Shown in pieces: positions 30,363 through 35,672 of a DNA stretch of 64,000 nucleotides (positions within the stretch are counted from its first letter, which is position 1; each line of letters begins with the position of its first letter). This DNA is from Limnochordales bacterium (GTDB taxonomy: Bacteria > Bacillota > Limnochordia > Limnochordales > DUMU01): positions 62,001 to 126,000 of the forward strand of contig JADBKP010000001.1 in the NCBI GenBank assembly GCA_014896315.1. Reading direction: 5' to 3'. Position numbers and translations under genes: made by a program. Below the pieces are notes generated by a model, which was given only the letters and a program-made list of their open reading frames with translations, searched no databases and was not told where the DNA came from.

Positions 30363-31454
30363 ATGAGAATAGGCATTGTTGGACTTCCGCAAGTTGGCAA
30401 GACCAGTGTATTTCAGGCTCTCACCGGCAGCACGGCCGGGGTAGGTGTGGCGCCTGTCCCCGATCCGCGGGTGGACAGGCTGGCGGCCATGTTCAACCCC
30501 CGCAAGACAACTTATGCCCAGCTGGAACTGGTCGACCTCCCTTCCTACCCCCTCTCCGGTGGCCCGGCCGGTACGCCGGCAGGCGGCAAAACGGTGGAGC
30601 AAGCCCGGCGAGCTTTCCTCGAGGCGGTCCGGGACGTCGATGCCCTCATCCAGGTGGTGCGCGCCTTCGACAACCCGGCGGTGCCCCCGCCACTTGGCAG
30701 CATCAACCCCGCCCGGGAGTTCGCTACTCTGCAAGAGGAATTTCAGCTCTCCGATTATCAGGTGCTGCAAAACCGTCTGGAAAGGCTGGCCAAGACCGGG
30801 CGCGGCCGCACCGGCAATCCCGCGTCGGCCAGGAGTGAGGCTGAGCTACTGGAGAGATGCAGTGCCTGCCTGGAGGAAGGCAAGCCCCTGCGCACCCTAT
30901 CCCTCGCCGCGGAAGAGGAGAAGCTGCTGCGGGGTTTTGACCTCTTCACCTTCAGGCCGGTGATTCTTGTGGTTAACCTCGACGAAGATGAATGGCGGCG
31001 GGGGAAGTACACGGGCCAGGAGGTTCTCGAGGCGCTGGCCGCGGCGCAGCATTTGCCGGTGCTCCCTATCTGCGGCCGTCTGGAACAGGAGATTGCCGAG
31101 CTGCCGCCGGAGGAGAGAGAAGCTTTCGCCCACGAGCTTGGTATCGAGGAAACGGGTATTGCGCGTCTGGCCCGTACAACCTACGCCCATCTCGGCCTGA
31201 TCTCCTTCTTCACCGTGGGCGAGGACGAAGTCAAAGCCTGGACGATCCGCCGCGGGATGAGCGCCCGGGAGGCTGCCGGCCGGATTCACAGCGATATCGC
31301 CCGCGGCTTCATCCGGGCAGAAGTGGTCACGTACGCTGACCTGATGGCTTGCGGTTCACTGGCGGCGGCCCGGGATAAGGGCCTGCTCCGCCTGGAAGGC
31401 AAGGATTATGTGATGCAGGACGGCGACATCGTCAACTTCCGCTTCCATGTCTGA
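30363..31454 (+). CDS. YchF/OLA1-related GTP/ATP-binding protein
   Basis: The 363-residue protein has a P-loop GLPQVGKTS (7-15), a Walker B-like LVDLPSY (about 58-64), an NxD-type motif in VVNLDED and a C-terminal TGS-like domain (LGLISFFTVGEDEVKAW through DGDIVNFRFHV). This is the OLA1/YchF layout (DUF933), but the protein is one of the divergent paralogues found in Clostridia. YchF proteins bind ribosomes and hydrolyse ATP or GTP. No SD precedes the ATG; see the -10 box upstream. Confidence 0.87.
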   Translation: MRIGIVGLPQVGKTSVFQALTGSTAGVGVAPVPDPRVDRLAAMFNPRKTTYAQLELVDLPSYPLSGGPAGTPAGGKTVEQARRAFLEAVRDVDALIQVVRAFDNPAVPPPLGSINPAREFATLQEEFQLSDYQVLQNRLERLAKTGRGRTGNPASARSEAELLERCSACLEEGKPLRTLSLAAEEEKLLRGFDLFTFRPVILVVNLDEDEWRRGKYTGQEVLEALAAAQHLPVLPICGRLEQEIAELPPEEREAFAHELGIEETGIARLARTTYAHLGLISFFTVGEDEVKAWTIRRGMSAREAAGRIHSDIARGFIRAEVVTYADLMACGSLAAARDKGLLRLEGKDYVMQDGDIVNFRFHV

Positions 31455-31472
31455 GCACCGCTCAAACCGGTC

Positions 31473-32261
31473 TCACCGCGAAAAGCCGCCGGAAAGGTAG
31501 GCCGAGGAAGAAGCGGACTCCGTACGCAGATGTACCTGATCACTGCCAAAGTGCAGGAGTTCTGCGCCGGTGTCCAGCACCAGCCGCCCATCGTCATCGA
31601 GGCCAGCAAAACGGCCGCGCCAGACCGCACCGTCCTCGCCTACGACCAGCACCGGCTCGTCTATCAGCAACAGGCGCTGGCGGGCCTGCGCAGCAAGAGG
31701 GATGTACTCGCCCCGGAGCAGGGAGCGGTAGAGGGGCAGGAATGCCCGTTCAACGGCGAGCAGCACGGCCCGCAGCGAGAAACGTTCACCGGTCTCTTCG
31801 TAGAGGCTTGTCGCCTTATGCCGTAATGCCGGCGGGAGATCTGCAATCCTCACATTCACGTTGAGGCCGACCCCGGCCACCGCCGCCAGCGCCTGGCCTT
31901 CAACTCCCCGGGTCTCGACCAGCACGCCGGCCAGTTTGCGGCCTCCTACCACCACATCATTAGGCCATTTCACCCGCGCGGTTACGCGGGAGACCTCTTC
32001 GACGGCCCGGGCCGTCGCCAGCGCCAGTGCCAACCCCAACCAGGAGGCACTCCGCATCGGGAGCGGCCGGGCAAAAGACAGAAGGCGGCTGGCCCACAGG
32101 CCACCCAGGGGTGACGCCCACTTTGAACCGCGGCGGCCCACCCCCGCCGACTGGGTCAAAGCGACCACCCACGTGTCCCGCCGGTAGCCGGCCTCCCACA
32201 GGCGCCAGGCTACAGTATTGGTAGAATCGACTGCTTTCAACCAGATCTGAGGTGTTTCCAT
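31473..32261 (-). CDS. birA: Biotin-protein ligase BirA, without HTH domain
   Basis: The 262-residue enzyme attaches biotin to carboxylase subunits. It has LKAVDSTNTVAWRL near the N-terminus, the biotinyl-AMP loop GVGRRGSKWASP (about 41-52), KWPNDVVVGGRKLAGVLVE (about 98-116) and a C-terminal SH3-like domain. It lacks the N-terminal HTH found in many Firmicute BirA proteins, so it should not repress biotin genes itself. No strong SD precedes the ATG. Confidence 0.93.
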   Translation of the reverse strand: METPQIWLKAVDSTNTVAWRLWEAGYRRDTWVVALTQSAGVGRRGSKWASPLGGLWASRLLSFARPLPMRSASWLGLALALATARAVEEVSRVTARVKWPNDVVVGGRKLAGVLVETRGVEGQALAAVAGVGLNVNVRIADLPPALRHKATSLYEETGERFSLRAVLLAVERAFLPLYRSLLRGEYIPLAAQARQRLLLIDEPVLVVGEDGAVWRGRFAGLDDDGRLVLDTGAELLHFGSDQVHLRTESASSSAYLSGGFSR

Positions 32262-32309
32262 ACTTTCGCTGTCAAATGGTATAATTGGCGCTGAAGGGAG
32301 GGCGGTCGT

Positions 32310-33305
32310 GTGTCTGCTCCCTCGTCCCCACCCCGCAAGTGGTTCTTTTTTTCATCAGGGATCTTGCCTGTCCTGCTGATGCTTGTGACCGCGCCCCCGG
32401 CCCGGACAACTACGCCTGCCTTCCCCGTCTTTGCTCTGGTAGAGATCACCGCCGAATTTCCCGCACCGAGCCTCCCTTCGGTCTTTTCCCGACCCCTTGG
32501 CATAGATTTGTTTGCCGAAGACTGGTCACGCACACCCTGGACGTACCCGCCCGATCCCCGCGCTCTCCGTCGTGTCGGCCTCGGTATCCTAATAGATCCC
32601 CGCGGTTACATCCTGACCAGCCAGCATCTGGTGGGCTACCCGGGTGATCACCAGAAACTCAACGCCCGCATCCTCTCCCCGGTTGCGACAGATCCTGCCA
32701 CCGCCGCCGGACTCGCCTCGGCGACGCCGGCGTTGACCGTAACCGGGGCCGGAACTCCGCTTGCCGTCCGGCTGGTCGCGGTTGATCCGGTCCACGACTT
32801 GGCACTGCTTCTCACAAGTGAACCTCCGGCGTACCGGCCAAACTCCCCGGAGCTGGTCGCAAGTCTGCTTCCCCTGGAACCGGGCTCTGCCGTCAGTCTG
32901 GTTGGGGGATCGGTGGCCGGCTCTGATCTCTCCGGGTTGACCTTGCTCCCCGGCGAGGTAACACGTTACAACAGATGGCCCTCCGCAGATGCTCAGGCGA
33001 CCGCCCACCTGATCGACCCGCTGCTCGGTGAGACCCGGGAGGTTTCAGGGCTTGTCCCCATCCGCCTGCTGCAGGTACCCGTGCTTGCCGCTGCCGCCAC
33101 CTCCACTAGTTCTACCGGCTTCGCCGCTCCCCTGCCGGGAGGTCCCGCCTTCGACAGGAACGGCCAGGTGGTGGGGCTGGTGACCGGCCTTGTGGCAACT
33201 TCCGATCCCGATCTGGCCTTTCTCGTCCCCTTGCAGGTGGGGCTGCAGCTTATGTCAGACTGGCAGGCGAGTGAAGAACGCTTCCGGCGCGTCAAGGACG
33301 AGTGA
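32310..33305 (+). CDS. Trypsin-fold (HtrA-like) secreted protein lacking the catalytic Ser
   Basis: The 331-residue product has a signal or anchor segment (about 15-30) and an HtrA/Deg-type chymotrypsin fold: GLGILIDPRGYILTSQHLV (His106 at the position of the catalytic His), VAVDPVHDLALL (Asp163) and PLPGGPAFDRNGQVVGLVTG. The last motif normally reads GNSGGP; here the Ser position is Pro276. No PDZ domain follows. The fold is clear, but it is probably not an active serine protease and may bind peptides or act as a scaffold. The GTG at 32310 has GGGAGGG 7 bases upstream. A TATAAT lies at 32278-32283. Confidence 0.72.
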   Translation: MSAPSSPPRKWFFFSSGILPVLLMLVTAPPARTTTPAFPVFALVEITAEFPAPSLPSVFSRPLGIDLFAEDWSRTPWTYPPDPRALRRVGLGILIDPRGYILTSQHLVGYPGDHQKLNARILSPVATDPATAAGLASATPALTVTGAGTPLAVRLVAVDPVHDLALLLTSEPPAYRPNSPELVASLLPLEPGSAVSLVGGSVAGSDLSGLTLLPGEVTRYNRWPSADAQATAHLIDPLLGETREVSGLVPIRLLQVPVLAAAATSTSSTGFAAPLPGGPAFDRNGQVVGLVTGLVATSDPDLAFLVPLQVGLQLMSDWQASEERFRRVKDE

Positions 33306-33657
33306 TCTCCACCTCTGCGTACCCCACCATGCCGGCCAGGGGCGGCTGCAGCTTGCGAACCCGCACGGTAACCTTCTCCAACCCTGCTCTCCCCTGCTGC
33401 GACTCAAGGATCGCCCCTGCGATTGCCTCTGCCAGCGCCTCGGCCAACCGGAAGTGGCGTTCCTCCACCACCTCCTTGATCAGGGAATATACGCGGGAGT
33501 AATCCACCGTCGCCGAGAGCTCATCCACCCGGCCTGCTTCTTTGAGATCAAGCCAGAGGTCGACGTCAACCTCCCACCGCTGCCCGAGTTGCTGCTCCGC
33601 GGGAATAGCTCCATGGTAGCCGTAGAAGACCATGTTCTTCAAGCTCAACCGGTCCAA
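33292..33657 (-). CDS. folB: Dihydroneopterin aldolase FolB
   Basis: FolB converts dihydroneopterin to hydroxymethyl-dihydropterin in folate synthesis. The 121-residue protein has the family start LKNMVFYGYHGAIPAEQ (with the catalytic Glu), VDYSRVYSLIKEVVEERHF and a C-terminal VRVRKLQPPL (Lys). The length is normal. The TTG start has no obvious SD. It lies 62 bases downstream of ftsH; folP and folK are not adjacent. Its 3' end overlaps the convergent HtrA-like gene by 14 bases. Confidence 0.92.
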   Translation of the reverse strand: MDRLSLKNMVFYGYHGAIPAEQQLGQRWEVDVDLWLDLKEAGRVDELSATVDYSRVYSLIKEVVEERHFRLAEALAEAIAGAILESQQGRAGLEKVTVRVRKLQPPLAGMVGYAEVEITRP

Positions 33658-33719
33658 GCCCGCAGGCCGGTTACGGGTACTCAGCGCCAGCCACCTCCCT
33701 GCCGCATGCGATCCGATAA

Positions 33720-35672
33720 CTATTGCAGTCCTACAGCCGGCTTGGGCTTCTTGCCGGCGTCGAGCGGGATTCCCACTTCCTGACTGCGCTCCCGCGCCTC
33801 GGCGGCCGCCGGCTGCTCCTGCTGCTCTTCTTGCTCCTTCTTCTCCTGCGGCGCCTCCACGGCCGGTTTGTCCAGTTCCTCGCCGCGCATCAGAGCGGCA
33901 AACTCCTCCCGGCCGAGCGTCTCCCGCTCCAGAAGCGCTTCCGTAACCCGGTCGAGCTCAGCCCGGTGTTCCTGCAGGATCTGCTTGGCCCGGGCATAAG
34001 CCGTTTCGACCAGGCGGCGTACTTCCTTGTCGATGGCCGCCGCCACTCTTTCACTGTAGTTGCGGTCGCGGGCGATATCCCGGCCGAGGAAGATCAGGTC
34101 CTCATGCTGCCGGCCGAAGGTTAGCGGGCCGAGCTCTTCGCTCATGCCATACTCCGTCACCATCCGGCGGGCGATCTTGGTCACCTGCTCCAGATCGTTG
34201 TGCGCCCCGGTGCTCACCTCTCCCAGGACCAGCTCTTCCGCGGCCCGTCCTCCCAGCATGTGAGCGAGCCTCTCCTCCAACTCGGTCCTGGTCTCATACC
34301 AGCGGTCCTCTTCCGGCAGCGTAAGGGTGTAACCTCCTGCCATGCCACGACCGACTATGGTCACCTTGTGAACCGGATCCGAATGCGGCAGGAAGTGCGC
34401 TACCACGGCGTGGCCCGCCTCGTGAATGGCGGTAAGCCTCTTCTCCTCCGGGGTCATAACCCGGCGCTTCCGCTCCGGCCCGAGCAGCACCCGGTCAATG
34501 GCTTCCTCAATCTCCGCCATCCCGATCCGCTTCTTGTTGCGGCGCGCCGCCAGGATCGCCGCCTCGTTCATCAGGTTCTCGAGATCCGCCCCCACGAATC
34601 CAGGGGTCATGCGGGCCACCACTTTCAGATCTACATCCGGCCCCAGGGGTTTGTTGCGGGCATGGATACGCAGAATCTCCTCCCGGCCGATCACGTCCGG
34701 CCGGTCGACAACAATCCGCCGGTCGAAGCGCCCGGGACGCAAAAGGGCCGGGTCGAGGACGTCGGGGCGGTTCGTGGCTGCCATGACGATAACGCCGGTG
34801 TTGGCCTCAAACCCGTCCATCTCCACCAGCAACTGGTTGAGGGTCTGCTCCCGCTCGTCGTGACCGCCACCCAACCCGGCACCCCGGTGCCGGCCAACCG
34901 CATCCAGTTCATCGATGAAGACGATACAGGGGCTGTTTTTCTTAGCGGTCTCAAACAGGTCGCGCACGCGGGCCGCACCCACTCCCACGAACATCTCAAC
35001 GAAGTCCGACCCGCTGATGCTGAAGAAGGGAACTCCCGCCTCACCGGCCACTGCCCGGGCAAGGAGCGTCTTACCGGTCCCAGGAGGACCAACCAGGAGT
35101 ACTCCCTTGGGGATCTTGGCTCCCATCTCGACGAAACGCTTGGGATGCTTGAGGAATTCTACTATCTCTCCGAGCTCCTGTTTGGCCTCGTCGGCACCGG
35201 CAACATCATCAAACGTCACTTTCGCCTTCTCTTCCGAGTAAAGATGCGCCCGGGCCTTAGCAAACGAAAGGGCCCGGTTGTTGCCGCCCTGCATCTGGTT
35301 GAGGATAAAAAGGAAGAAGGCTGCGAAGATGACCAGCGACAGAATGGACGGCAGCAGATCAACCCACCAGGGCCTTACGGTCGGGCGAGCCTCCACCGGA
35401 ATGCCCCGTGCCTGAAGTTCCTCCACCACCTGCGGTACCATCCCAGGCGGCAGGACGGTCTGGAATTGCTTCTTGTTGGTCAACCGTCCGACTACGTTCT
35501 GGTCCCCGATGAACTGTACTTCGGCAACCTCACCACGCTCGACGTACTGCATGAATTCGGTGAAATTGGGCCGTTCCGGTGGTGACGGGCTATTCATGAG
35601 GACCCTACCCAGAGAGAGCGCCAGGATGGCGATAAGCATATACAAGCTGATGTTACGTGCCAGTCTGTTCAA
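33720..35672 (-). CDS. ftsH: Membrane AAA+ zinc protease FtsH
   Basis: FtsH degrades membrane and regulatory proteins. The 650-residue protein has two membrane segments (about 8-24 and 107-127) flanking an extracytoplasmic loop, Walker A GPPGTGKT (about 194), the AAA second region of homology, the zinc motif HEAGH (about 416) and a Glu/Gln/Ala-rich C-terminal tail. The TTG start has GGGGAGG 7 bases upstream. It directly follows tilS; the hpt gene that separates them in Bacillus is missing. Confidence 0.97.

Follow-up and report, generated by a model that had tools for sequence, protein, structure and literature searches.

A gene in the window, the 64,000-nucleotide stretch of Limnochordales DNA analysed here, is the orthologue, by position and signature, of an active HtrA found across its class. 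It has lost the catalytic motif, the PDZ domain and two segments of the ancestral protein, and its sequence has remained under constraint. We consider it fairly likely that this slot HtrA has been turned into an exported, probably monomeric, non-catalytic binding protein of the extracytoplasmic space, a conversion in which we infer the binding, the export, the inactivity and the monomeric state. Two copies of this pseudo-HtrA are known, one in the window's genome (G000) and one in the sole other genome of the genus compared (G001); a further genome, G002, belongs to the same family and to another genus. A preliminary description of the gene had read it as an HtrA-like secreted pseudoprotease, with a chaperone, an inhibitor or a peptide receptor as possible roles, and included neither the positional orthology to the class-wide active HtrA nor the loss of the trimer-linked segments.

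The pseudo-HtrA gene and its surroundings

The gene, its parts and its neighbours are as follows.

31473..32261, minus strand: birA, an HTH-less ligase that bounds the slot on the left (Pfam BPL_LplA_LipB; synteny)
32310..33305, plus strand: pseudo-HtrA gene, 331 aa, GTG start with GGAGGG a few nucleotides upstream; orthologue in the congener genome G001
32343..32387, plus strand: hydrophobic segment, residues 12-26, candidate signal peptide or N-terminal anchor
32511..32549, plus strand: FAEDWxRTPWxYP motif, residues 68-80, 11 of 13 identical between the two pseudo copies
32622..32654, plus strand: QHLVGYPGDHQ, residues 105-115, with His106 at the catalytic position and the signature of folB-adjacent HtrAs
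32796..32798, plus strand: codon of Asp163, the Asp at the catalytic position in VDPVHDLALL, invariant across the 15-sequence alignment
33129..33146, plus strand: PLPGGP, residues 274-279, which replaces GNSGGP, so that Gly193 and Ser195 each become Pro (hhalign)
33292..33657, minus strand: folB, right border of the slot (Pfam FolB; synteny)
33720..35672, minus strand: ftsH, named by its family, the gene after folB in the conserved slot (translation; synteny)

The pseudo-HtrA gene diverges from birA and converges on folB, and its strand neighbours yield no operon partner. Its 3′ end reaches 14 nt into folB, which leaves no space for a relic of a PDZ domain. A scan of 31400-33800 gave neither a consensus promoter nor a terminator, and no Rfam family matched anywhere in the window. 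As to the other genes, the birA at 31473-32261 (minus strand) is of the ligase-only type, without the N-terminal HTH found in BirA of G003, another genome of the order (Pfam). At 603-2075 on the minus strand, a single 490-aa ORF with IspD and YgbB (IspF) domains represents an IspDF fusion (Pfam).

The window protein matched Trypsin_2 (PF13365) in Pfam over residues 90-290 and over the full profile, with an E-value of 6.2e-11 and 43.7 bits against a cut-off of 27.6. Apart from Trypsin_2, no Pfam domain was found in it at E ≤ 1, PDZ models included, in agreement with the preliminary description, which had reported no PDZ domain; the congener copy gave no PDZ match either. The most hydrophobic 15-residue stretch scored 2.32 and began at residue 12, and the corresponding stretch of the congener scored 2.29 and began at residue 43. 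The most striking stretch common to both pseudo copies, and among the best conserved, was FAEDWxRTPWxYP, which presumably lies in the LA-loop region of HtrA.

Origin from a class-wide HtrA slot

The arrangement birA(-), HtrA(+), folB(-), ftsH(-) recurs in the class, and the window gene occupies the same slot. When 28 slot-type loci (L007-L034) were inspected with flanks of about 1.5 kb, 18 were bounded by birA at one end and by folB/ftsH at the other, a further 7 had one of birA and folB, 2 had tilS only and 1 had none of the flank genes. The slot label was assigned from the locus list, and it includes L023 without a flank gene and L026 and L028 with only tilS in the flank. Four order members were also part of the slot set, with L036 and L039 adjoining ftsH and L040 and L041 adjoining folB. 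In the order members G004 and G007, an active-type HtrA with a PDZ domain was located next to folB and ftsH.

A signature, QH[VL]VGxxGxxQ, was present in 31 of the 32 slot-type rows and in both pseudo copies, and in none of 28 other HtrAs. The motif GNSGGP was found in 30 of the 32 slot rows, i.e. in all 30 that reach the site, the other two ending earlier; these counts cover the matches that were retrieved as loci. All four slot HtrAs scanned with Pfam had a PDZ domain, compared to neither of the two pseudo copies. Among individual active HtrAs, L069, L070 and L009 are adjacent to folB in the same slot as the pseudo-HtrA and L077 is located beside tilS-ftsH. The signature, in the form QHVVGxxGxxQ, is shared with L069, L077 and L009, L070 being the exception, whereas all four differ from the pseudo-HtrA in carrying both GNSGGP and a PDZ domain.

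A tree was built from 62 HtrA rows (61 HtrA-like ORFs minus contained duplicates and the window and congener copies, with both pseudo rows re-added from their own coordinates). The pseudo pair grouped together with 100/100 support and fell inside the slot group with 92/95, a value that was not starred. The branches of the pair were very long (2.48 and 2.25, with a shared branch of 5.07), and an AU test did not reject a tree in which the pair joins the L002-type HtrAs and not the slot group (p 0.31). The signature is the stronger evidence of slot origin compared to the tree. Together, the slot, the signature (31/32 against 0/28) and the tree (92/95) point to descent from an HtrA and support the window gene as the positional orthologue of the class-wide, folB-adjacent active HtrA. 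They also support an active-type, PDZ-bearing HtrA in the conserved slot as its ancestor. Among the NCBIfam HtrA models, the best match of the window protein reached 26.7 bits where the cut-off is 470, and the active HtrA L002 also scored below these cut-offs.

The L002 locus (G000 C16:120790-121233; also on C23 of G001 and C55 of G002) encodes an active-type HtrA with a PDZ domain, which the tree places near the slot HtrAs. Its context is common to the three genomes of the family and differs from that in another family of the order. L002 may have arisen from a slot HtrA by relocation or duplication.

Replacement of the catalytic serine and the oxyanion glycine

When the window protein was aligned by hhalign with a 13-row profile of active slot-type HtrAs (probability 98, E 2e-13), PLPGGP was found opposite GNSGGP, with Pro274 at the position of Gly193, Leu275 at Asn194 and Pro276 at Ser195. 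A two-row profile of the window and congener proteins also had Pro opposite Ser (98.8, 9.1e-17). The preliminary description had aligned His106 and Asp163 with the Deg/HtrA triad, and the alignments, hhalign included, confirmed this for His106 in GYILTSQHLVG and for Asp163 in VDPVHDLALL. Its placing of Pro276 at the Ser position, with PLPGGP for GNSGGP, was likewise upheld by the hhalign register and by a Pro in the congener. In contrast, two larger MAFFT alignments had Ser265 opposite the catalytic Ser, with 11 residues inserted between it and GGP. The loop preceding GGP in the window protein is about 11 residues above normal length. We prefer the hhalign register over the MAFFT register because the residue adjoining GGP stays in line. 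In both registers no Ser adjoins GGP, and TSTSST around Ser265 is unlike G-x-S-G-G. On another Ser in the catalytic pocket, which the preliminary description had named as a refutation, the alignments were divided, with Pro276 by hhalign and Ser265 by MAFFT.

A protease with a relocated nucleophile, in which Ser265, Ser267 or Ser268 of the lengthened loop replaces Ser195, would be in line with the MAFFT register, with the Ser residues that both copies have in this loop and with the retention of His106 and Asp163. We regard it as highly improbable, since both the hhalign register and the pair profile have Pro at the Ser position, a comparison of the window and congener copies found no Ser at a shared distance from GGP/GAP, the loop was predicted with a pLDDT below 50 and Pro or Leu replaces the oxyanion Gly.

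The congener reads LPPGAP at this site, which puts Pro opposite Ser and Leu opposite the oxyanion Gly193. The triad of HtrA/Do (S1C) is incomplete in both copies, with His and Asp kept and Pro at the Ser position, and the oxyanion Gly193 is replaced in both, by Pro274 in the window protein and by Leu in the congener. Proline has no backbone NH, and because Pro occupies both 193 and 195 the window protein would be without both usual donors of the oxyanion hole. The replacement of both Ser195 and Gly193 argues against serine-protease chemistry. For the HtrA relative MamO, the case was made that an oxyanion hole does not form with a non-Gly residue at 193 (PMC4794232, in excerpt). The term secreted pseudoprotease in the preliminary description is supported by the hydrophobic residues 12-26, the replaced Ser and oxyanion positions in both copies, the missing PDZ domain and the constrained sequence, and from these we infer export and inactivity.

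Distribution in the genus and family

The orthologue in G001 is located in the same slot, between birA and folB, and has no PDZ domain. Its identity with the window protein is 42% in the MAFFT alignment and 38% in BLASTP. Whether the Ser is lost throughout the lineage was a question raised in the preliminary description, and neither of the two genomes of the genus compared has retained it. A sequencing or assembly error was rejected, as the congener has the same slot, a Pro at the Ser position and no PDZ domain. When a profile of the pair was run over 72 genomes of the class, full-length matches were obtained only in G000 (594 bits) and G001 (623 bits). In all, 53 of the 72 genomes matched at E ≤ 1e-6, those outside G000 and G001 through the N-terminal lobe with 28.6-47.8 bits. 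No further pseudo-type copy was found in the 72 genomes, the next-best match being the one of 47.8 bits over the N-terminal lobe.

In G002, birA and folB are adjacent and the slot has no gene between them; this genome of the same family has lost the gene from the slot. Another protein of G002, L113 (2836-3969, minus strand), is diverged and S1-like, reads SNNHVLA and GDSGA, and matched Trypsin_2 weakly and below the cut-off. It was rejected as the missing orthologue, having other neighbours and being by eye a different S1-like protein.

Selection on the two copies

By the Nei-Gojobori method, the window and congener genes differed with a dN of 0.57 and a dS of 1.93, and the resulting dN/dS of 0.30 is rough because dS is saturated. 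Identities at the first, second and third codon positions were 0.56, 0.64 and 0.35, respectively. Compared to the pseudo pair, dN/dS was 0.15 and 0.12 for active HtrA pairs from G000 and G001, and 0.25, 0.23, 0.18, 0.12 and 0.09 for the neighbours birA, tilS, folB, ychF and ftsH. Amino-acid identity was 0.54-0.69 by region over residues 37-170 and 0.32-0.36 over residues 171-331. The divergence fits purifying selection, although dS is saturated, with a constraint that lies mostly on the N-terminal lobe and is weaker than that on the neighbouring genes.

The weak conservation of the C-terminal half fits a slow decay of the gene as well, in which redundancy with the other HtrAs relaxed selection and the frame has stayed intact by chance or for want of time. 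The empty slot in G002 of the same family would agree with such a decay, and so would a dN/dS that exceeds the 0.12-0.15 of the active HtrA pairs. However, the frame is intact in two copies despite a saturated dS of about 1.9, the two proteins agree at 54-69% of residues 37-170, identity at third codon positions is 35% against 56% at first and 64% at second positions, and both the deletions and the FAEDWxRTPWxYP motif are common to the two copies. We therefore consider slow decay unlikely, and a gene kept under purifying selection remains the preferred reading.

Predicted fold and loss of trimer-linked segments

A search of genome contigs with the window protein alone gave no match, and a search with the 15-sequence alignment A2 gave at least ten distant HtrA loci, which served solely to build the AF2 alignment and enter no statement on taxonomy. 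From an alignment of the window protein with nine distant HtrAs, AF2 predicted a trypsin-like fold of middling confidence (pLDDT 65, pTM 0.65), with residues 259-273 below 50. Foldseek searches with this model gave DegS and DegP as the best PDB matches (E about 1e-11), and a superposition on DegP by VIA-align had a Z of 19.6 over 193 residues with an rmsd of 3.0. The likeness to DegS and DegP is partly built in, because the AF2 alignment consisted of HtrAs. Without an alignment, AF2 gave no fold for the window protein (pLDDT 32). The fold prediction that had been suggested as a check thus gives a trypsin-like model when HtrAs are supplied and no fold otherwise.

Ahead of the first strand, the slot HtrAs have an N-terminal segment of the type NPYLIADIAExVSPA. 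This segment is missing in both pseudo copies (TPAFPVF-ALVEITAEFP; NPFPFIVAITADFP), and the aromatic residue of GNP[YF]G is gone in both as well. The two missing segments probably correspond to the stretches with Y169, F171 and F278 of human HTRA1. A phmmer match that begins at query position 84, aligned with residue 17 of 3nzi, gives support at the level of the segment. This putative correspondence links the missing segments to the trimer, as Y169, F171 and F278 stabilise the HTRA1 trimer (a table in PMC8509474; PMC7351529; both in excerpt). The pseudo-HtrA is predicted to be a monomer because the trimer-linked N-terminal and GNP[YF]G segments are gone. The protease domain of MamO crystallises as a monomer (PMC4794232, in excerpt).

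The genome G000 has three active-type HtrAs with PDZ domains, located elsewhere on contigs C1 and C16. A neighbouring active HtrA, which the preliminary description had proposed to look for, was not found adjoining the gene, and an adjoining active HtrA as partner gene was rejected, all active-type copies being at these other sites. L114 and L115, both in G004, are long proteins with a C-terminal trypsin-like domain that read AGNSGGL and SGHSGGA, respectively. The long N-terminal part of L114 resembles pre-peptidase repeats by eye, and L114 was rejected as a further loser of the Ser motif in view of its AGNSGGL.

In the DegP hexamer, the LA loops block opposite active sites. A heteromer in which the pseudo-HtrA serves as a dead subunit or inhibitor of an active HtrA, for example of the L002 type, perhaps with the LA-region motif reaching the active sites, would find partners in the active-type PDZ HtrAs of the same genome and would account for an LA-region motif among the best conserved stretches. 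We think this improbable, as neither copy has the N-terminal segment or the GNP[YF] aromatic tied to trimer contacts, which argues against joining a canonical trimer; a monomer is the reading that we retain.

Comparison with HtrA proteases and MamO

The pseudo-HtrA resembles HtrA/Do (Deg, peptidase family S1C) in its Trypsin_2 domain, the His and Asp of the triad, the N-terminal hydrophobic segment and the predicted fold, and it shares its slot with active HtrAs of the class. It differs in being without the catalytic Ser, the oxyanion Gly, the PDZ domain, the N-terminal trimer segment and the GNP[YF] aromatic, and in the lengthened loop before GGP.

Among open-licence PMC papers on HtrA with pseudoprotease or pseudoenzyme, the relevant cases were MamO and PRSS23, and no relevant case was found there for Limnochordia with HtrA. 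MamO of Magnetospirillum is an HtrA relative whose protease domain has lost catalysis and binds transition metals, and its authors proposed that redundancy let one copy lose catalysis (PMC4794232, in excerpt). MamO and the pseudo-HtrA are both HtrA-related pseudoproteases with an altered loop L1 and a non-Gly residue at 193. However, MamO has Thr for Ser, a TauE transporter domain and di-His metal binding (same source, in excerpt), whereas the pseudo-HtrA has Pro for Ser, nothing after the domain, and another lineage and gene context.

The window protein was not listed at E ≤ 1 for the NCBIfam MamO model, and the congener reached 28.3 bits against a cut-off of 800, over the N-terminal lobe only. 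The window protein has four His in total and no Pfam domain beyond Trypsin_2. A metal-binding pseudoprotease of the MamO kind could be argued from the precedent of a non-catalytic, metal-binding HtrA relative with a non-Gly at 193 (PMC4794232, in excerpt) and from the match of the congener to the MamO model. That match is far under the cut-off and confined to the N-terminal lobe, and the His conserved in both copies are His106 and His162. This pair was rejected as a metal site, since His162 is part of DPxHDLALL, which is also found in the active HtrA L088. We give the metal-binding alternative very little weight; the best reading is that the pseudo-HtrA is analogous to MamO but of independent origin.

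Proposed role and implications

In the proposed course of events, the slot HtrA of the genus ancestor would have lost the catalytic Ser, the oxyanion Gly, the PDZ domain and the trimer-associated N-terminal and GNP[YF]G segments, and would have retained the trypsin fold and the His/Asp pair. The protein would be exported to the extracytoplasmic space and would act there as a monomeric, non-catalytic binder, which may hold or present a peptide or protein, or restrain a partner, via its conserved N-terminal lobe. Proteolysis would be left to the other active HtrAs of the cell. For Limnochordales, three closed circular genomes of isolates and a diderm envelope have been described (PMC11456536, in excerpt), and membership in this diderm order suggests a periplasmic location of the pseudo-HtrA.

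HtrA-derived pseudoproteases seem to be rarely described in bacteria, and those found among open-licence PMC papers were from magnetotactic bacteria only. The chances appear about even that, in one genus of a Bacillota class, a housekeeping-slot HtrA was converted to a monomeric, PDZ-less pseudoprotease under purifying selection, whose genus-specific, conserved FAEDWxRTPWxYP motif in the presumed LA-loop region serves a new binding or regulatory role. This would be an independent repurposing of HtrA outside the magnetotactic bacteria, with a sister genome deleting the gene from the slot instead. One slot provides a before-and-after series, in which the HtrA is active and carries a PDZ domain in the relatives, is apparently dead and PDZ-less in one genus, and is absent from this site in the sister genome. 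Though the organisms are poorly cultivated, the order of the losses and the new role thereby become directly testable.
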